Shown: positions 19,763 through 40,869, numbered from the stretch's first letter. The stretch: 43,095 nucleotides of DNA from Bacteroidota bacterium (GCA_013361065.1 JABWAK010000013.1:1-43095); one strand, 5' to 3'. Translations and numbers: made by a program. The notes: generated by a model from the letters alone, not told the origin.

Positions 19763-20319
19763 CCCAGCGAACGCCGCCACTCCCGGTATCCGTACACCGC
19801 CAGACCGAGATACACCGCATACAGCACCATCGTCACGTACAATCCCTTCACGCCGTACATCCCGATCGAACCGATGTTCACCGCGATCCAGAGCGTCCAG
19901 TTCTCCAGATGCTTCCTCGCCATCATCCACTGCGCCGCCATGCTCAGCACCGCCAGGAACGAGTCCACATACGGCAGCGAGGCATCGGTCAGCTGATGGA
20001 GTGTTGCGCCGAGCGCGGCGGTGCCCGCAACAACGAAGAGAGCGCTCCATAACCAGCCGCTCCGCGGCACCCGCGTCACCTGCAGCTCCGTCCTCCCCGC
20101 CCCGCCGTACAGCCATTCGTACCATCCGTACGCCTGCAGGATGATGAAGAACACCTGCAGCCCCATGTCCGCGTACAGTTTCACCTCATAGAAGATGAAG
20201 ATGTAGAGGAAGACGGAGATGATGCCGAGCGGATAGCACCAGACATTCTCCTTCGTCACCAGATAGACGGAAATGAGTCCCAGGACGACGGCAACGATCT
20301 CAGCGGCGCTTTCCGGCAT
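19747..20319 (-). CDS. pnuT: PnuC-family permease, probably thiamine transporter PnuT
   Basis: 190-residue integral membrane protein with about seven helices, matching the PnuC family. Characteristic segments are VTKENVWCYPLGIISVFLYI, ILQAYGWYEWLYG and WTLWIAVNIGSIGMYGVKGLY. PnuC itself carries nicotinamide riboside; PnuT members carry thiamine by facilitated diffusion followed by metabolic trapping. Its placement 8 bases downstream of thiamine pyrophosphokinase in an operon headed by a TPP riboswitch argues for thiamine. The family is seen in the sequence, the substrate is inferred from context. The 3' end overlaps the convergent kinase gene by 16 bases. Confidence 0.88.
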   Translation of the reverse strand: MPESAAEIVAVVLGLISVYLVTKENVWCYPLGIISVFLYIFIFYEVKLYADMGLQVFFIILQAYGWYEWLYGGAGRTELQVTRVPRSGWLWSALFVVAGTAALGATLHQLTDASLPYVDSFLAVLSMAAQWMMARKHLENWTLWIAVNIGSIGMYGVKGLYVTMVLYAVYLGLAVYGYREWRRSLGQSLA

Positions 20320-20327
20320 GGATTCGA

Positions 20328-20978
20328 TCAGTGGATGATGTGGGAGTGGATGACGAACAGCAGCAGGGCACCGCTCTTCACTGCGACCGATGCCGCCGTT
20401 CCGGTCGCTTCGTTGCTGAGTCCTTCACGGACGCCGGGTTCGAGTGCTTCGTTCCTCAGCGGGTATTTCAGTCCTTTCGTGGTGATCCCGCCGCAGCGTC
20501 CCATCGGCACGAGCGAGATCTGCTGGCCCGGCACCGTGCGGAAACGGACCGAACGGCGGATCACCTCCACCGTACAGCGCTCGTCCAGGAACTGCAGCGC
20601 GATCCGTTTGTGATATTTGAGGAGGATGCTGAAGTTGGACATGGTGTGATCGGACCGTTCGCCGGTGGCGCCGATGACCGTTGCGGATGTGATGCCGAGC
20701 GACAGCAGGTGGTCCAGCGCCTTCTCCAGGTCGGTGTTGTACTGGTCCGGATTATGCACGATCGGCACCGCGGCGAAGTACTGCCGTGTGCGCTGCGTGA
20801 TGGAATCCAGGTCGCCGATGATCACATCGGGAGTGATGCCGTAGGGCCGCGCCCGGTTGGCGCCGCCGTCCGCACAGATGATGAACGGTTTGCGGCGCAG
20901 GAACGGCGTGATGAGCTTCAAGGACGGCATCTCGCCGTTGCAGATGATCAGGGCATTCTTCGGGATTCGTTTCTTCAT
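20328..20978 (-). CDS. Thiamine pyrophosphokinase
   Basis: 216 residues from ATG 20978. It transfers pyrophosphate from ATP to thiamine, making TPP in the cytoplasm. Diagnostic residues are ICADGGANRA, the metal-binding DVIIGDLDSI, DQYNTDLEKAL and IGATGERSDHTMSN, in the usual order. An in-frame ATG at 21017 overlaps the TonB-receptor stop codon by 7 bases (ATGGTAA), which would allow translational coupling but adds 13 basic residues not typical of the family. I therefore prefer 20978, without excluding the longer form. Together with PnuT it traps imported thiamine as TPP. Confidence 0.92.
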   Translation of the reverse strand: MKKRIPKNALIICNGEMPSLKLITPFLRRKPFIICADGGANRARPYGITPDVIIGDLDSITQRTRQYFAAVPIVHNPDQYNTDLEKALDHLLSLGITSATVIGATGERSDHTMSNFSILLKYHKRIALQFLDERCTVEVIRRSVRFRTVPGQQISLVPMGRCGGITTKGLKYPLRNEALEPGVREGLSNEATGTAASVAVKSGALLLFVIHSHIIH

Positions 20979-33795: not shown

Positions 33796-34171
33796 TGAGG
33801 ATCGGTCCGCTGTGCTGACGATAGTCTCTCGACAATGAGGCCGGGCTGGCCTTGTGCATCAGCATGCAATTCCATCGCAACGGGTGCTTCGCAAATCGGA
33901 TAACGAATCATCCACCAATTCACTGTCTTATCAGCTCTGGTGATCATTGCAAAAACCACGCATTCGCACCATGTGCCGACCCATTCACAAACAACAGACC
34001 CGATGACCGATATGACGACAGACGAACGAACAATACCGACCTGGATCCTCATCATTTCTGCCCTTCTTGCGCTCATGGAGATCGGCGTGAGTCCTACATG
34101 AGAAAATCTCGTGAGCTAATCCACATTTCCAGCCCTTTAATGCGATCAACAACCATCGAGTGCTCCGCATC
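33796..34171. other. Degraded/noncoding stretch between DUF3667 and beta-lactamase genes
   Basis: About 375 bases with no intact gene of convincing coding character. It contains the short membrane-protein remnant at 34003. On the minus strand, 33800-34076 has a readable frame with protein-like text (WWMIRYPICEAPVAMEL) but no recognisable family, so a decayed minus-strand gene is possible. Confidence 0.35.
34003..34101 (+). pseudogene. Probable N-terminal remnant of a small membrane protein
   Basis: A 32-residue frame, MTDMTTDERTIPTW followed by ILIISALLALMEIGVS, then a stop. I recall similar openings at the start of four-helix membrane proteins of unknown function, in which the first helix is followed by more helices. 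Here everything after the first helix is missing. There is no good ribosome-binding site. It could also be a genuine short membrane peptide. Confidence 0.3.
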
Positions 34172-35083
34172 ATGATAAGACTCCTTCAACGCCTCATTCT
34201 CATCTGTATCGTATCATTCAGTCAGGCACAAGACACCGGCACCGCCCCTCTGCGCACCGCCATCGAACGGATCGTTGCCGGCAAAGACGTAGTGGTCGGC
34301 GTGTCGGTCTTGTCCGGGGATGGTCGGGACACACTCTCGCTCAACGGCAGCCGACGCTTCCCGCTGCAGAGCGTCTTCAAATTCCACATCGCTGCCGCAG
34401 TGTTACAGCAGATCGACCAGCGCCGCTTCGCACTGACCGACAGCATTGAGGTCCGCGGACCGCAGCTCCTCCCCGGTCTCTGGAGTCCGCTCCGCGAGGA
34501 GCATCCCAACGGCGGCTGGTTCACCATCGCTGCGTTGATCCGCTACAGCGTCTCTCAGAGCGATAATGCCGCGTGCGATGCCCTGCTCCGGCTGGCGGGC
34601 GGTCCCGCTGCGGTGGAACGGTTCTTCCATTCCAACGGCATCACGGATATCGCCATTGTGCTGAACGAGGAGACCATGCAGAAGGATTGGGAACAGATGT
34701 TCCTGAACTGGAGCACTCCGCTCGCCGCGACCGAGGCAGTACGGCTGCTGTACGTGAACAGGAACGGACTCCTCTCCACGCAGAGTCACCGCTTCCTCTG
34801 GACCGTGATGCGGGAGACGGAGACAGGGCTGAAGAGGTTGAAGGGGAATCTGCCGCCGGGAACGGCTGTTCTTCATAAGACAGGTTCCTCCGGCACCAAC
34901 AGTACAGGGATCACCGAAGCGGTCAACGATATCGGCATCATCGTGCTCCCGGACGGTCGGCATATCTATATCAGTGTGTTCGTTTCCCGTTCCCGGGAGA
35001 ACAGCGAAACGAATGAGCGGATCATTGCCGAGATCGCTAAGGCAGCGTATGACCATTTTACAGGACGACCGAAAAAGAATTGA
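34172..35083 (+). CDS. Class A (subclass A2-like) beta-lactamase
   Basis: 303 residues. A signal peptide (about 1-20, ending SFSQAQ) exports the enzyme to the periplasm. The serine beta-lactamase motifs are all present: Ser67-x-x-Lys70 in QSVFKFH, SDN at 130-132, the omega-loop glutamate region NEETM (about 165-169) and KTG at 236-238. NWSTPLAATEAVRLL is typical of the A2 subgroup (CepA/CfxA/PER-like) common in Bacteroidota. Predicted reaction is hydrolysis of beta-lactams; the spectrum cannot be read from sequence. A GTG at 34160 is an alternative start with four more residues. It is a single gene with no regulator or mobile element attached, so probably a resident enzyme. Confidence 0.93.
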   Translation: MIRLLQRLILICIVSFSQAQDTGTAPLRTAIERIVAGKDVVVGVSVLSGDGRDTLSLNGSRRFPLQSVFKFHIAAAVLQQIDQRRFALTDSIEVRGPQLLPGLWSPLREEHPNGGWFTIAALIRYSVSQSDNAACDALLRLAGGPAAVERFFHSNGITDIAIVLNEETMQKDWEQMFLNWSTPLAATEAVRLLYVNRNGLLSTQSHRFLWTVMRETETGLKRLKGNLPPGTAVLHKTGSSGTNSTGITEAVNDIGIIVLPDGRHIYISVFVSRSRENSETNERIIAEIAKAAYDHFTGRPKKN

Positions 35084-35141: not shown

Positions 35142-35897
35142 ATGACTGAGATCGAATTACTCGTCGACCTCCATCTCGAATCCGAACGTCAGGGACCGGG
35201 AAGCATCCGGGAAACGCTGAAGGCCCTCGACTGTATGGATCTTCCCCGTGACCGCATGCTCTCGATCGCGGACATCGGTTGCGGCTCCGGCGGACAGACG
35301 ATGACGCTCGCGCAGCATGTGAATGGGCATATCACCGCGGTCGACATCTTCCCGGAATTCCTGGATGGCCTGAATGAGAAATCCCGCACAGCAGGATTGT
35401 CGGATACCATCCTGACGCTCAAGAGATCGATGGACGATCTGCGATTCAGCGATGAACAATTCGACATCATTTGGTCGGAGGGTGCGATATACAATATCGG
35501 ATTCGAGCGGGGGATCCGCGAATGGAGACCGTTCCTGAAGGCCGGCGGCTATGCGGCGATCAGCGAGATCACATGGATCACCCAGACCCGTCCGCCGGAG
35601 ATCGAGGACTACTGGAAGAAGGAATATCCGGAGATCGACACCGCTCCGGCCAAGATCGCACTGCTGGAGAAATACGGGTATTCTCTCACCGGATATTTCC
35701 ATCTGACCCAGGAGAGTTGGATGGAGAACTTTTACCGTCCCTTGGAAGCGAGATTCGAGGCCTTCCTCGAACGGCACCGACGATCACCGGCTGCCACAAA
35801 GGTCGTTGATGACCATCGAACGGAGATCGATCTTTACCGTCGGTACAAGGAGTATTATAGTTATGGGTTCTACATTGCCCGCAAGGATCGAACGTAA
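35142..35897 (+). CDS. Class I SAM-dependent methyltransferase
   Basis: 251 residues. Motif I IADIGCGSGGQTMTLA (about residue 42-57) binds S-adenosylmethionine, motif II is the acidic strand end ITAVDIFPEFLDGL, and FDIIWSEGAIYNIGFERG gives motif III/IV of small-molecule methyltransferases (Methyltransf_11/25-like). The substrate is unknown. Start by position only: the ATG follows 58 bases after the beta-lactamase stop codon with no clear Shine-Dalgarno sequence. A copy of the palindromic repeat begins two bases past the stop. Confidence 0.88.
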   Translation: MTEIELLVDLHLESERQGPGSIRETLKALDCMDLPRDRMLSIADIGCGSGGQTMTLAQHVNGHITAVDIFPEFLDGLNEKSRTAGLSDTILTLKRSMDDLRFSDEQFDIIWSEGAIYNIGFERGIREWRPFLKAGGYAAISEITWITQTRPPEIEDYWKKEYPEIDTAPAKIALLEKYGYSLTGYFHLTQESWMENFYRPLEARFEAFLERHRRSPAATKVVDDHRTEIDLYRRYKEYYSYGFYIARKDRT

Positions 35898-35898
35898 G

Positions 35899-35966
35899 AG
35901 TCATGGCATCACTTAAGTCATGGCATGAGTCTTTCAACCGAAGTGGACAACCGATTCCGCCAACCT
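35899..35966 (+). repeat. Palindromic repeat, copy 1
   Basis: Core ATGGCATCACTTAAGTCATG followed by CATGAGTCTTTCAACCG and a degenerate right flank (GACAACCGATTCCGCCAA). It is the most diverged of four copies, with changes in the right arm. It lies right after the methyltransferase stop codon. Confidence 0.85.
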
Positions 35967-35984
35967 CACCAATAGAACTGCACA

Positions 35985-37052
35985 ATGAATATCAAGCGAT
36001 GCCAGCAATTTCGCAACAGGAACAGTCCGAATCGGTTCCTTCTCATCGCTGTATGCTCTATAGTATTCTGCATACAGCGGACACACACACAACCTCTTTT
36101 CGGCATCCTCTCCGGTCCGGGCACGGTCGTGTCTTCTGTGGAGAACAACATCCACGCGATCTATCAGGACTCACAGGGGAACCATTGGTTCGGCAGTGCA
36201 ACCAATGGAGCGTACCGATTTGACGGCGCCTCGCTGCTGCGGTTCACCGTCAGCGATGGACTGGTGAGCGACCGGATCGGGGGCATTCAGGAGGATGCAT
36301 TGGGCAACCTCTACTTCGACACTCCCTCCGGTGTGAGCGTCTTCAACGGGAAAAGGTTCACGACCCTCGTCCCGGTCCGCTCACCGGCGAACCAGTGGAA
36401 GAAACGATCCGGTGATCTCTGGTTCAAAGGGGCAGCGGGGACGAATGCCGTTTTCCGCTACGACGGGACCACACTGTACCGGCTGGAATTCTCCGACCTC
36501 CGTCCCGGCACCTATACGAACGCCCACGCCGTCTACTGCATCTTCAAGGATCCGAAAGGAAACATCTGGTTCGGTACAGAGAGCGGCGGGGTGTTCTGCT
36601 ACAACGGGACCGCCCTGCATCGTATCGTTGAAGAGGAGCTGGGACAGCTGAAGGACGGCCGTGTACCGGGGATCCGTTCCATCCTGACAGACAATGATGG
36701 ATATCTCTGGTTCAGTAACATTCAGTACCAGTATCGAATCACAAAGAATGACAAGACATCACTGGAGTATGCAAGGGTGCAACGGGTGCCAACCTCGGAA
36801 CGGCAGCAGACGACCCTGCCATATTACACCTCCGCAATAACGGTCAGCAACACTCTCTGGATGACCGCCTATAACGAAGGTGTGTGGCGCTTTGACGGCA
36901 GAACATTGACCGTTCAACCCATCTCAAAGAACGGCAGGAAGATACAGCCGATGAGCATTTACCGGGACAGGAGCGGTGTTCTGTGGCTGGGGACGGATAA
37001 TGACGGAGTGTATGTGATGAAAGGAAAATCCTTTGTGAAGTTCAACCCATAA
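35985..37052 (+). CDS. Secreted Reg_prop beta-propeller protein without kinase domain
   Basis: 355 residues. A signal peptide or N-terminal anchor (about residues 17-35, FLLIAVCSIVFCIQ) exports the protein. The body consists of five to six two-component-regulator-propeller blades, each ending like NHWFGSATNGAYRFDG, GNIWFGTESGGVFCYNG or GVLWLGTDNDGVYVMKG. In Bacteroidota such blades form the periplasmic sensor of one-protein two-component systems. Here the protein ends after the propeller, with no Y_Y_Y domain, membrane helix or kinase, so it may be a stand-alone ligand-binding or adaptor protein. Palindromic repeats lie on both sides (copy 2 touches the stop codon). The start lacks a clear Shine-Dalgarno sequence. 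Confidence 0.85.
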   Translation: MNIKRCQQFRNRNSPNRFLLIAVCSIVFCIQRTHTQPLFGILSGPGTVVSSVENNIHAIYQDSQGNHWFGSATNGAYRFDGASLLRFTVSDGLVSDRIGGIQEDALGNLYFDTPSGVSVFNGKRFTTLVPVRSPANQWKKRSGDLWFKGAAGTNAVFRYDGTTLYRLEFSDLRPGTYTNAHAVYCIFKDPKGNIWFGTESGGVFCYNGTALHRIVEEELGQLKDGRVPGIRSILTDNDGYLWFSNIQYQYRITKNDKTSLEYARVQRVPTSERQQTTLPYYTSAITVSNTLWMTAYNEGVWRFDGRTLTVQPISKNGRKIQPMSIYRDRSGVLWLGTDNDGVYVMKGKSFVKFNP

Positions 37053-37117
37053 GCAGTCATGGCATCACTTAAGTCATGCCATGACTCGTTCAACCGGTTC
37101 GGGCAACCGTACCAGTC
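37052..37117 (+). repeat. Palindromic repeat, copy 2
   Basis: AGCAGTCATGGCATCACTT followed by AAGTCATGCCATGACT and the flank TTCAACCGGTTCGGGCAACC. One C-C mismatch in an otherwise perfect palindrome. It overlaps the last base of the propeller gene stop codon. Confidence 0.9.
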
Positions 37118-37146
37118 AATTCTTTCTCCTGTCGACAAAGGCATCG

Positions 37147-37962
37147 ATGGAATACCGGACATATGAACCGTGCGATGACCTCTCTGCGTTGATCAAATGC
37201 TATTGGTCGCTGGAAGGTCCTGCAGCGGAGCGGCCCGAACGACAGACCATCGTTCCGGACGGATGTATGGAGATGATCTTCCATTACGGTGATGCATACC
37301 GCCAGCACATGGATACGGGCGACAGCATCATCCAGCCGCTCTGTTTCGTTATCGGTCAGCTGACCCGGCCGCTGGAGATCGAACCGACAGGGCGCACCGG
37401 GATCTTCTCGGTCCGCTTCTTACCCCACGGCTTCTTCCCCTTCACCTCTGTTCCGCTCAGAACGATGGAGAACACAGCGATCCCGCTGGAAGAGCTCTTC
37501 GGCCCTTCCGGACGGGAGTTCGGTCAGCGGGTCATTGCTGCCGGAAGCACGATGGAACGGATCCGGATGACCGAACAATTCCTCCTGCAGCAGCTGACGG
37601 ACCAGGTGACCATCGACCGTATCGTTGCCTCTACGGTCGGAACGATCATGACCGTCAACGGCACCATGTCGGTCGCAGAACTCTCCGACCGGTCGAAGGT
37701 CAGCCGCAGGCAGTTGGAACGGCGTTTCGCATCGGTCATTGGACTCAGTCCGAAACAACTTTCCAAGACCGTCCGGCTGCAGGCAGCTCTCACCATGGTG
37801 CTGAGCGGGACCAGCCCGAATCTCACGGCCGTGGCGCATGAGAGCGAATACTTCGACCAGGCACATTTCGCCAAGGATTTCAAAGAGCTGACAGGAGTAA
37901 CACCGAAGGAATTCTACGGGAACAATGTACAGCTCTCCTCCCTGTTCTATGGTCCGGAATGA
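37147..37962 (+). CDS. AraC-family transcriptional regulator (DUF6597-type N-terminus)
   Basis: 271 residues from ATG 37147. The N-terminal half (MEYRTYEPCDDLSALIKCYW ... VPDGCMEMIFHYGD ... GQLTRPLEI) is the DUF6597 sensor-like domain often attached to AraC regulators of Bacteroidota. The C-terminal 100 residues hold the two helix-turn-helix motifs: MSVAELSDRSKVSRRQLERRF and the family signature AHESEYFDQAHFAKDFKELTGVTPKEF. Ligand and targets are unknown. The in-frame ATG at 37081 lies inside repeat copy 2 and would add unrelated residues, so I use the later start. It may regulate the adjacent DUF6265 gene, 95 bases downstream. Confidence 0.92.
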   Translation: MEYRTYEPCDDLSALIKCYWSLEGPAAERPERQTIVPDGCMEMIFHYGDAYRQHMDTGDSIIQPLCFVIGQLTRPLEIEPTGRTGIFSVRFLPHGFFPFTSVPLRTMENTAIPLEELFGPSGREFGQRVIAAGSTMERIRMTEQFLLQQLTDQVTIDRIVASTVGTIMTVNGTMSVAELSDRSKVSRRQLERRFASVIGLSPKQLSKTVRLQAALTMVLSGTSPNLTAVAHESEYFDQAHFAKDFKELTGVTPKEFYGNNVQLSSLFYGPE

Positions 37963-38057
37963 CCATGTCGCATTTTTACAAGGTTTGGCCGGCCCTGCTT
38001 CGTATCATCCATGCATCATCCGTTGAACAATGCTGCTCACTTTAACCATCGGCCACC

Positions 38058-38534
38058 ATGCGCTCAATGTCTCTATGCACACTCACAATCCTTGGACTGT
38101 TGTACTCACCTCTCTCTGCACAATCATCGGACGGTTTGCAGAACGCCGCGTGGCTGATCGGCACGTGGAAGAACACAACGGCGAAAGGGAGTATCTATGA
38201 AACCTGGGACCGAACCGGGGTAACGGAGTTCTCGGGGAAGAGTTATATGCTCAAGGAGCGAGATACGATCGTATTCGAGTCGATCCGGTTGGTGCAGGAA
38301 GAAAACGGGGTCTTCTATATCCCGGTGGTGAAGGATCAGAACAATGGCGCTCCGGTCCGGTTCACCGCCGGCATTGTCACCGGGCAACAAATGGTCTTTG
38401 AGAATCCGCAGCATGATTTTCCGCAGGTTATCTCCTACACTCGACTCAGCGCCGATTCCCTGGTCGCGGAGATCTCGGGCATGCGGAACGGAAAGATGCG
38501 GAAACAGCGGTTCCCGATGGTGCGTGTCCGCTGA
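38058..38534 (+). CDS. Exported DUF6265 family protein
   Basis: 158 residues with a signal peptide (MRSMSLCTLTILGLLYSPLSAQ). The mature part opens LQNAAWLIGTWKNTTAKGSIYETWDR and ends FENPQHDFPQVISYTRLSADSLVAEISG, the two hallmark blocks of the DUF6265 family, small lipocalin-like beta-barrel proteins of unknown function. It lies downstream of the AraC-type gene on the same strand and is followed within six bases by repeat copy 3 and then a terminator. Confidence 0.85.
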   Translation: MRSMSLCTLTILGLLYSPLSAQSSDGLQNAAWLIGTWKNTTAKGSIYETWDRTGVTEFSGKSYMLKERDTIVFESIRLVQEENGVFYIPVVKDQNNGAPVRFTAGIVTGQQMVFENPQHDFPQVISYTRLSADSLVAEISGMRNGKMRKQRFPMVRVR

Positions 38535-38539
38535 TATTC

Positions 38540-38604
38540 GTCATGGCATCACTTAAGTCATGCCATGACTCTTTCAACCGGTTCCGGCAACCACTCCCGC
38601 CAAT
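38540..38604 (+). repeat. Palindromic repeat, copy 3
   Basis: GTCATGGCATCACTTAAGTC then ATGCCATGACTC and TTCAACCGGTTCCGGCAACC, ending ACTCCCGCCAAT. It is five bases after the DUF6265 stop. The right flank is identical to copy 4 over ACTCCCGCCAAT. Confidence 0.9.
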
Positions 38605-38628
38605 CTTCACTGCAGCGCGTACAACAAA

Positions 38629-38662
38629 AAGCCATCGGAGGAATTCTTCTCCCTGATGGCTT
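38629..38662. terminator. Hairpin downstream of DUF6265 gene
   Basis: Arms AAGCCATC (38629-38636) and GATGGCTT (38655-38662), with an inner GGAG/CTCC stem and an A-run before the left arm. It sits between the convergent DUF6265 and S9 peptidase genes. The following 140 bases contain no gene. Confidence 0.65.
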
Positions 38663-38805
38663 CATTGTTCTTGAATCTGATCGCCGCGGCCTATCACAGC
38701 TGCGACCGTTACAGCTGTTCTATTCTCGTTTCTGCTGAAGGATTATTCTAGTGGTGCGATTTCGAGACATTGTCCATTTTCAATTGTTCATTGTCCTTCC
38801 GCACA

Positions 38806-40716
38806 CTATTTCAGCAGATATTCCTCCCAGAACAACGTCATCGCGTTGTTGAAGTGATCGCGGTTCACCTTCTTCTGGAACCCGTGGCCCTCATCCAGCG
38901 CCAGGAAGTACCAGACAGGGTTCATGTTCTTCCGGACCGTGGCAACGATCTGTTCCGCTTCGGTGAACGGCACACGCGGATCGTTCTTCCCCTGCGCCAC
39001 GAAGAGCGGCTTGGTGATCTTGTGGGCATTGGTGGTGGGCGAGATGGCGTTCAGATGCTTCCGCATCAGTGAATCACGCTCGTCGCCATATTCGACTCGG
39101 CGAAGGTCCCGGCGGTACTCCTGCGTGCTCTCCAGGAAGGTGACGAAATTGCTGATACCGACCACATCCACACCGCACTTCAGCCGGTCATTGTAATGGA
39201 ACATGGAGGCGAGCACCATATATCCGCCGTACGAACCGCCGTAGACCGCCACGCGTCCCTTGTCCAGCTCCGGCCGCGTTGCGATCCAGTCCAGCAGCGC
39301 CCCGATATCCTTCACCGAGTTCTCCCGCAGATACCCGTTGTCCAGCGACACGTACGTCTTCCCGTACCCGGTAGAACCGCGCACGTTCGGCACCAGCACA
39401 GCGATACCGAGTTCGTTGGCCCAGTACTGATAAACGGAGGAGAAGGTTGGCATTGACTGTCCTTCCGGTCCGCCGTGGATGCTGATGACGGAGGCAGCCG
39501 GTTTCGTTCCATTCTTCGGCGCATAATAGAACGCCGGGATCTTCTTCCCGTCGAAGGAGGTGTATTCGATCAGCGTCGGCAGGACGAAGTTGTCGGTGTT
39601 GAGTCCGCCGACCTCACTGTACGTCCAGCGCGTGAACTTCTTCGTTTTTAGGTCGAGCACATACACATCTCCGGGGGTCTGCGACGTATTGACGGTGAGC
39701 GCCAGTTTCGCATCGTCCTTGGTGAAGCCCCACCCGCCGAAGACGCCGACCGGCGGCTTCTCGGTGATGATCTCCTTCCGGGACTTTGCATCAAGCAGAT
39801 ACATCGTGCTCACCCCTCCTTCATTCATTTCGTAGACGATATACTTGCCGGTGGATGAGACATCGAAGTCCGACACGTCCCACGAAGCATTCTTCGAGAT
39901 GACCGTCTTCGTGTTGGTCTTCACATCGAGATGGATCAGCTGTTGGTACTCGCCGAACTCATCGGACGTATAATAGATCCCTTTCCCTCCGGGTGCGAAC
40001 TTCGCTCCGCCGTAGGCGATCTTCTGTCCCGGATTGATCTGCGTCTTCGCACCGGTCGCCGCATCGACGATGTACAGGTACGATTCGGTGACGGAGATGT
40101 AATTGCCCACCAGCATCTTCGCGTCGTCTTCGGACCAGTCCTGAACTCCCCACGATCCGCTCACTTCCATCAGCAACTGTGCGTTCTTCGGGTCCGAAGC
40201 GGAGGCGCGATAGATGTCGTTGTCCCGGCCGTTCCGTTTGGTGCTGGTGAAAACGAAATGGGATCCGGCGTTATTCCAGAGTCCGCCGCCGTTGCGGCTC
40301 TTCCCGTCGGTCAGCATCTCATAGGCGCCGGTCGCCATATCGAAGGAGTAGACCTGGAAGAACTCTCCGCCGCCGACATCCTTTGTGAAGAGGAAGGAGG
40401 TCCCTCCTTTCACCGGACGGAACATGCCGTTGCTGACCGACTCGCGGAAGAAGGTGATCTGCTTGCGGGCGCCGCCGGGCGATTCCACATAGTGGAACTG
40501 GTTGGTCTCGCCGAACCGGGTGACGATGAGCATTCCCTTGCCGTCCGGCGACCAGTCCGCGAACGATGCACTGCGGACATTCTGATACTGGTTCATCTTC
40601 TCCGCGATCCGGTCCGGGATCGGCGGAACATCCTCGGTGATGACATTGCCGGTCTGGGTCCGCACCTGTGCAAACAGGGCAAGCGGCAGCAGAAGCAGGA
40701 ATAGGGCGCGTTTCAT
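38806..40716 (-). CDS. S9 family prolyl oligopeptidase-type serine peptidase
   Basis: 636 residues from ATG 40716. A signal peptide (MKRALFLLLLPLALFAQ) sends it to the periplasm. The N-terminal ~370 residues form a WD40/TolB-like propeller (RSASFADWSPDGKGMLIVT, KFAPGGKGIYYTSDEFGEYQQL). The C-terminal alpha/beta hydrolase has the nucleophile in YGGSYGGYMVLAS (about 496), Asp in GKNDPRVPF (about 583) and His in DEGHGF (about 607). Such enzymes (dipeptidyl peptidase or acylaminoacyl peptidase types) cleave short peptides. GGAG eight bases before the ATG supports the start over the in-frame 40767. It is convergent with the DUF6265 gene. Confidence 0.95.
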   Translation of the reverse strand: MKRALFLLLLPLALFAQVRTQTGNVITEDVPPIPDRIAEKMNQYQNVRSASFADWSPDGKGMLIVTRFGETNQFHYVESPGGARKQITFFRESVSNGMFRPVKGGTSFLFTKDVGGGEFFQVYSFDMATGAYEMLTDGKSRNGGGLWNNAGSHFVFTSTKRNGRDNDIYRASASDPKNAQLLMEVSGSWGVQDWSEDDAKMLVGNYISVTESYLYIVDAATGAKTQINPGQKIAYGGAKFAPGGKGIYYTSDEFGEYQQLIHLDVKTNTKTVISKNASWDVSDFDVSSTGKYIVYEMNEGGVSTMYLLDAKSRKEIITEKPPVGVFGGWGFTKDDAKLALTVNTSQTPGDVYVLDLKTKKFTRWTYSEVGGLNTDNFVLPTLIEYTSFDGKKIPAFYYAPKNGTKPAASVISIHGGPEGQSMPTFSSVYQYWANELGIAVLVPNVRGSTGYGKTYVSLDNGYLRENSVKDIGALLDWIATRPELDKGRVAVYGGSYGGYMVLASMFHYNDRLKCGVDVVGISNFVTFLESTQEYRRDLRRVEYGDERDSLMRKHLNAISPTTNAHKITKPLFVAQGKNDPRVPFTEAEQIVATVRKNMNPVWYFLALDEGHGFQKKVNRDHFNNAMTLFWEEYLLK

Positions 40717-40799
40717 GGATTCTCCGTTCTTTTGATGTTTGGGGAAAACGAATGGGTCAAAATACACAAGCGGAGGCGGTTACACAACTGTCAATTGTA

Positions 40800-40869
40800 A
40801 AGCAGTCATGGCATGACTTAAGTCATGCCATGACTGCTTCAACCGGTTCAGGCAACCACTCCCGCCAAT
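40800..40869 (+). repeat. Palindromic repeat, copy 4 (40-bp perfect palindrome)
   Basis: AAGCAGTCATGGCATGACTT (40800-40819) is followed by its exact reverse complement (40820-40839). The flank TTCAACCGGTTCAGGCAACC and ACTCCCGCCAAT follows. Copies 1-3 differ at one base of the left arm (C for G). It lies upstream of the S9 peptidase gene, so a role as terminator is unlikely for this copy. Confidence 0.92.

Follow-up and report, generated by a model that had tools for sequence, protein, structure and literature searches.

REP elements of the GTAG superfamily have been described together with RAYT transposases (PMC2817692, PMC3733652), and Bacteroidetes are absent from the phyla listed for GTAG repeats (PMC3733652). 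The CGTC-tagged REPs, whose reported phyla include Chlorobi and Bacteroidetes and which come without a dedicated transposase, are defined by an unpaired CGTC, TGTC or CCTC end, a stem of 8-9 bp and a loop of 4-5 nt (PMC3733652). The TIR repeats of TIRYT/TIRtron elements have been described as well (PMC3733652).

We analysed a window of 43,095 nucleotides from a Bacteroidota bacterium (GCA_013361065.1 JABWAK010000013.1:1-43095), which carries four copies of a palindrome that recurs in its own genome (20 copies, 32-40 bp). Like GTAG REPs, it is a palindrome within the 20-40 bp range, extragenic, located 3' of genes in tandem or convergent spacers and patchy among related species, and several such families are present per genome. 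Unlike GTAG REPs, it presents neither an unpaired GTAG head nor a RAYT gene flanked by it, has only about 20 copies and a long stem with a minimal loop, and does not form alternating BIME arrays. With the CGTC-tagged REPs it shares the palindromic form, the lack of a dedicated transposase and the phylum, but its AGTC is paired with GACT instead of standing as an unpaired CGTC, and its stem measures 14-20 bp compared to 8-9 bp; membership of that class is ruled out by tag and stem. As in the TIR repeats of TIRYT/TIRtron elements, the repeat is long, self-complementary, devoid of a GTAG tag and of moderate copy number, whereas no tyrosine transposase flanked by the repeat was found.

The best reading of the window palindromes is thus an untagged, transposase-orphan, REP-like family, which extends the REP-like elements by a family of this kind, from a Bacteroidota lineage that has received little study. 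Several REP-associated transposases accompanied by their own palindromes are encoded in the same genome. Two further candidates were dropped: a DNA uptake signal, for which the copy number is too low, and a regulon operator, as no sites lie between divergent genes.

Anatomy of the palindrome and its four copies in the window

The core, AGTCATGGCATSACTTAAGTCATGSCATGACT, is 32 bp long and consists of two 15-mers joined by TA. The 15-bp half-site, AGTCATGSCATGACT, is near-palindromic, and the two nearly symmetric halves together form a long inverted repeat centred on CTTAAG, capable of folding into a single long hairpin, with a stem of 14-20 bp, a minimal loop and a TTAA centre. The initial annotation had placed four copies of a near-perfect palindrome with this centre in the window; all of them are present within a few bases of the positions it gave, with cores at 35899-35930, 37055-37086, 38539-38570 and 40804-40835.

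The first copy (P1, 35899-35930, plus strand, AGTCATGGCATCACTTAAGTCATGGCATGAGT) lies 1 nt past the stop codon of a methyltransferase gene (35142-35897, plus strand, PF13649), which itself follows a gene for a beta-lactamase family protein (34160-35083, plus strand, PF13354). The second (P2, 37055-37086, plus strand) is found 2 nt past the stop codon of a two-component regulator propeller protein (35985-37052, plus strand, PF07494), and the third (P3, 38539-38570, plus strand) 4 nt past that of a DUF6265 protein (38058-38534, plus strand, PF19780). Two genes therefore separate copies 2 and 3, the DUF6265 gene and that of an AraC-type regulator (DUF6597 + HTH_18, 37147-37962, plus strand, start set by the G006 alignment; G006 is introduced below), and the copies do not alternate with single genes throughout, as had been proposed. 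The fourth copy (P4, 40800-40839) is located 5' of an S9 peptidase gene (38806-40716, minus strand, PF00326); it is indeed the perfect 40-bp palindrome that had been reported, and no strand can be assigned to it. Likewise, the single C/G change reported for copies 1-3 corresponds to a C in place of G at core position 12 in all three.

In 29 copies, the ATG, CAT, A and T positions in each half are invariant, and variation is concentrated at G/C positions such as 2, 4, 8 and 12. The commonest form, in 19 of the 29, has a C-C mismatch at pair 12, hence a perfect hairpin is not strictly maintained, and half-dyad pairing over the 29 copies is not above the expectation from column composition. Considering 21 non-orthologous copies, a modest Watson-Crick excess was obtained for the variable core pairs (permutation p about 0.01) and for the two adjacent pairs beyond the core (p about 0.02), values that are not strict probabilities because the copies are related. 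In one orthologous palindrome pair of the window's genome (G000) and its congener G006, CTTAAG is symmetrically replaced by CGTACG; such a change may come from either hairpin selection or template switching within the hairpin.

RNA folding against shuffled sequences gave far more stable hairpins for P2 (z -5.6) and P4 (z -7.3), and weaker ones for P1 (z -2.3) and P3 (z -2.9). No Rfam family was found in the window.

The 3' flank TTCAACCGGTTC, presented in the initial annotation as conserved, is restricted to the window cluster and is not a feature of the whole family. The flank sequence TTCAACCGGTTCNGGCAACC is exact beside copies 2-4 (flanks at 37089-37120, TTCAACCGGTTCGGGCAACC..., 38573-38604 and 40838-40869, all on the plus strand) and degenerate beside copy 1 (35932-35966, plus strand). 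Exact matches to TTCAACCGGTTCNGGCAACC occur at only these three places genome-wide, and a chance origin is rejected, with 0.01 matches expected in the window. Judged by the flank and by the C at position 12, the copies share one orientation, as had been stated; copy 4 itself is symmetric, and orientations are mixed elsewhere.

Genome-wide distribution and placement

The window's own genome, a 3.8-Mb draft in 288 contigs, contains 20 copies including the four of the window, and the congener G006 (MAG GS21, a draft in about 510 contigs) contains about 11; since both are drafts, copies may be missed. The family thus exceeds the four members first described. The remaining copies of G000 are located at C68:17344; C71:1209 and 1358; C106:18510 and 20153; C115:17778; C162:60761, at a contig end; C223:35584, 36006 and 36498; C231:23292; C267:7565, 9374, 12722 and 17146; and C180:10016. 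Reversed-pattern controls gave zero matches in every genome searched, and a chance origin of the pattern was rejected.

Among 59 relatives searched, only G006 carries the family, and none was found in the other 58. A scan of 84,980 species, which may omit records closely related to the window's own genome, gave a family match only in Bacteroidota MAG GS21. No match was obtained in phage and plasmid collections, and a viral origin was rejected, the single IMG/VR match having 10 mismatches to the 32-mer and being taken as chance. As far as the searched collections go, the family is confined to two sister species.

Each copy is either intergenic or extends into the first or final codons of a gene; most stand 1-21 nt 3' of a stop codon, and the one at C223:36498 itself contains the codon that ends one gene as well as the codon that starts its neighbour. 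According to open reading frames and mechanical gene calls, the 19 assignable copies fall into about 13 tandem, 6 convergent and 0 divergent spacers. An intrinsic terminator adjoins some copies (C71, C115, C223). Within clusters, copies are separated by 0.15-3.3 kb and mostly share an orientation, while outside the window their orientation relative to genes is mixed. The suggestion of BIME-type elements fails on this order, as there is neither short regular spacing nor alternating orientation. The REP-type suggestion fares better: REPs are the closest class by location, size, hairpin and patchy distribution. However, no conserved GTAG/GTGG-like unpaired head stands beside the stem on either side in the 29 copies, no GTAG or CGTC tag is present, and no cognate RAYT flanked by the same palindrome was found in G000 or G006. 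Because tag and cognate RAYT are lacking, the family was not filed as REP.

Y1 transposases and the companion palindrome

Looking for a RAYT-type transposase, as the initial annotation had proposed, revealed nine Y1_Tnp genes in G000 and twelve in G006, none of which lies beside a copy of the family. Seven of the nine in G000 have the NCBIfam REP-associated tyrosine transposase as best match, and for three of these the match exceeds the cut-off of the model; the other two belong to the IS200 type. The earlier statement that no transposase is near holds for the copies themselves, while the REP-associated type is present elsewhere in the genome.

Several of these genes are accompanied by palindromes of their own, GGTGACTGTCACC at C185, AACGACTCTGGAGAGTCGTT at C230 and GCCCATAGATTAATCTATGGGC, on both sides of the gene, at C217; the C99 gene is associated with GTAGC-type repeats in tandem. 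At this last place (G000:C99:7900-9100), a RAYT gene is situated within a GTAG-type REP array (GATGTAGCCGGGATGGTCCATCCCGGC...).

A companion palindrome, TTGTCAAGGTTAACCTTGACAA, has 6 copies each in G000 and G006 and is limited to both among the genomes searched. It starts at the stop codon of the C166 transposase, of the REP-associated type, and of its G006 counterpart (G000:C166:3571-3592; G006:C26:1918-1939), and represents a TIR-repeat case with the transposase flanked on one side. Other G000 copies are found at C267:15078 and 17086 and C180:9954; in C267 and C180 the companion lies 32-40 nt from copies of the palindrome family.

Comparison of loci with the congener

Nine loci have G006 counterparts: P1 (G006:C153:756, directly 3' of the beta-lactamase gene), P2 (G006:C153:1922), C223:36006, C223:36498, C231, C115, C71, C106:18510 and C180. 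At C71, two copies in G000 correspond to one in G006, and the C180 copy is degraded in G006. A 17-bp deletion leaves one half of P3 in G006, and C223:35584 is likewise reduced to one half. P4, C106:20153 and C267:17146 are without counterpart although the locus is present; at P4, sequence identity stops at the left edge of the palindrome. Instead of only four copies, each fixed at orthologous loci, which had been named as grounds against a mobile role, there are 20, several of them absent or halved in G006. Between the species the palindrome is nearly identical, and the intergenic flanks are often badly diverged. From the comparison of G000 and G006, no clean empty site delimiting an insertion emerged.

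About 6 of the 12 comparable copies show a difference in gene content whose junction coincides with the palindrome edge or lies close to it. At P1, G006 lacks the methyltransferase gene that G000 carries between the beta-lactamase gene and the palindrome, and the beta-lactamase ends in AAYDHFK in G006, its C-terminus running into the palindrome edge that supplies the stop codon, compared to AAYDHFTGRPKKN in G000. At C231, a gene for a 441-aa protein, transporter-like by sequence, stands between the palindrome and the next gene in G006 only, and the C-terminus of that next gene reads KELV in G000 and KELETKG in G006. A 193-aa gene occurs in G000 only at C106:18510, and the neighbouring gene differs between the species at C115. 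G006 presents other sequence at P4 (about 1.2 kb) and at C106:20153 (about 2.8 kb). One-species genes with a stop codon 1-17 nt from the palindrome are found at P1, C106, C231/g141 and C115.

Elsewhere in the roughly 43 kb of aligned G000/G006 sequence, two or three further large differences occur. For gene differences at palindromes, p was 0.005 in a Fisher test that used an estimated number of control spacers (35). Alignments tend to stop at the conserved palindrome and permissive spacers may collect palindromes and gene differences alike, and the association of gene differences with palindrome edges is suggestive only. As C-termini are rewritten, deletions with one end at a palindrome edge can be argued, and we infer that the differences are deletions rather than insertions. 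The coincidence of palindrome edges with single-gene gain or loss at orthologous loci could link REP-like elements to gene turnover.

Proposed origin and alternative explanations

We consider it probable that these are low-copy, lineage-specific REP-like palindromes that were spread by a Y1 transposase in an ancestor, are now vertically inherited and act as deletion end points. The family would have spread in the common ancestor of the two species through a Y1 (HUH, RAYT/TIRYT-type) transposase with the hairpin in single-stranded form as its substrate, and this transposase would since have been lost or no longer lie beside the family. Copies would now mostly be inherited vertically and would retain passive or semi-passive effects: once transcribed, they would fold into hairpins at the 3' end of the mRNA, and they may serve as deletion end points. 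A deletion inside the palindrome would take out one 17-bp half (P3 in G006), and outer-edge deletions would remove the neighbouring gene and rewrite the C-terminus of the next one (P1 in G006, C231 in G000).

It is doubtful that the palindrome is instead a binding site for a nucleoid or regulatory protein, kept by selection in the host and not spread by a transposase. Its near-identity between species while the flanks diverge, the many positions invariant in 29 copies and the near-symmetry of each half by itself would fit such a site. However, no copy lies between divergent genes and many lie between convergent ones, where a promoter would not be anticipated; within the genus, the palindrome occurs in just two species, copies are absent or halved at orthologous loci, and half-dyad pairing is no better than column composition predicts.

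The edge differences might also be read as the work of an active processing site, at which a Y1 transposase of the host, perhaps that linked to the companion palindrome, cuts the edge and produces precise one-ended deletions with loss or exchange of single genes. We regard this as unlikely; if true, palindromes would drive the loss and exchange of single genes at 3' ends.

Selection for hairpins at mRNA 3' ends, as stabiliser or attenuator and whatever their origin, would account for the many copies 1-21 nt past stop codons and for the strong predicted folding, and an intrinsic terminator adjoins the copies at C71, C115 and C223. Since these terminators are separate, the palindromes are not needed for termination at such copies; moreover, no T-run follows the hairpin 3' and most copies carry the C-C mismatch, which makes this explanation quite unlikely.

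The initial annotation had further suggested target sites of a recombinase that moves single genes, of integron-like or other type. Single genes do lie between same-orientation copies in C240 and C223, and single genes differ at the edges, the stop codon of a one-species gene lying 1-17 nt from the palindrome in four places. Nevertheless, the integron integrase model TIGR02249 stays below cut-off in G000 and G006, the palindrome ends have no RYYYAAC/GTTRRRY boxes, and some neighbours look core, such as a gene at C223 that is BipA/TypA-like GTPase by sequence. The differences are also one-sided: nowhere in the G000/G006 comparison is the variable gene bounded by a second palindrome at its other end, a pattern that speaks against a cassette mechanism. 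Such a recombinase is therefore very improbable. The congener G003 presents a full-length integron integrase match (G003:C5:8075-9019, 453 bits) with one internal stop codon.

A MITE whose terminal inverted repeats match those of an insertion sequence, also suggested earlier and in keeping with a short, dispersed, few-copy inverted repeat, is hardly credible: no IS partner was found, half-sites (allowing up to 1 mismatch) match only inside full palindromes in G000 and G006, so that no larger element with palindrome ends appears there, no target-site duplication is visible by eye and the phage and plasmid collections gave no match.

Minor observations

TTCAA follows the C240 copies and stands beside the C267 copies; one ancestral flank was considered and is too weak to claim. 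The shared flank at C267 is partly coding, and the proteins encoded there seem to have a common C-terminal end (translation, by eye), so this cluster may have grown by gene-end duplication.

A motif like CGCTATCACGT or its complement occurs some tens of nucleotides away from the palindrome at G000:C68:17376-17415, G000:C106:18542-18620 and G006:C275:5626-5700. Another palindrome, GTGTCAAGGTTTTAAACCTTGACAC, lies 3' of the same gene in both species (G000:C106:17740-17776 and 20309-20343; G006:C275:5738-5768), and a different one, CCTTCCAGGTTTTTAAAAACCTGGAAGG, is found 3' of the orthologous gene in the congener G005 (G005:C43:7304-7337). In the sequence of about 1.2 kb at the place of P4 in G006 (G006:C153:5943-7303), a small reading frame looks GIY-YIG-like by eye, and the palindrome TCGCCACGAAGTGGCCACTTCGTGGAAA occurs three times.
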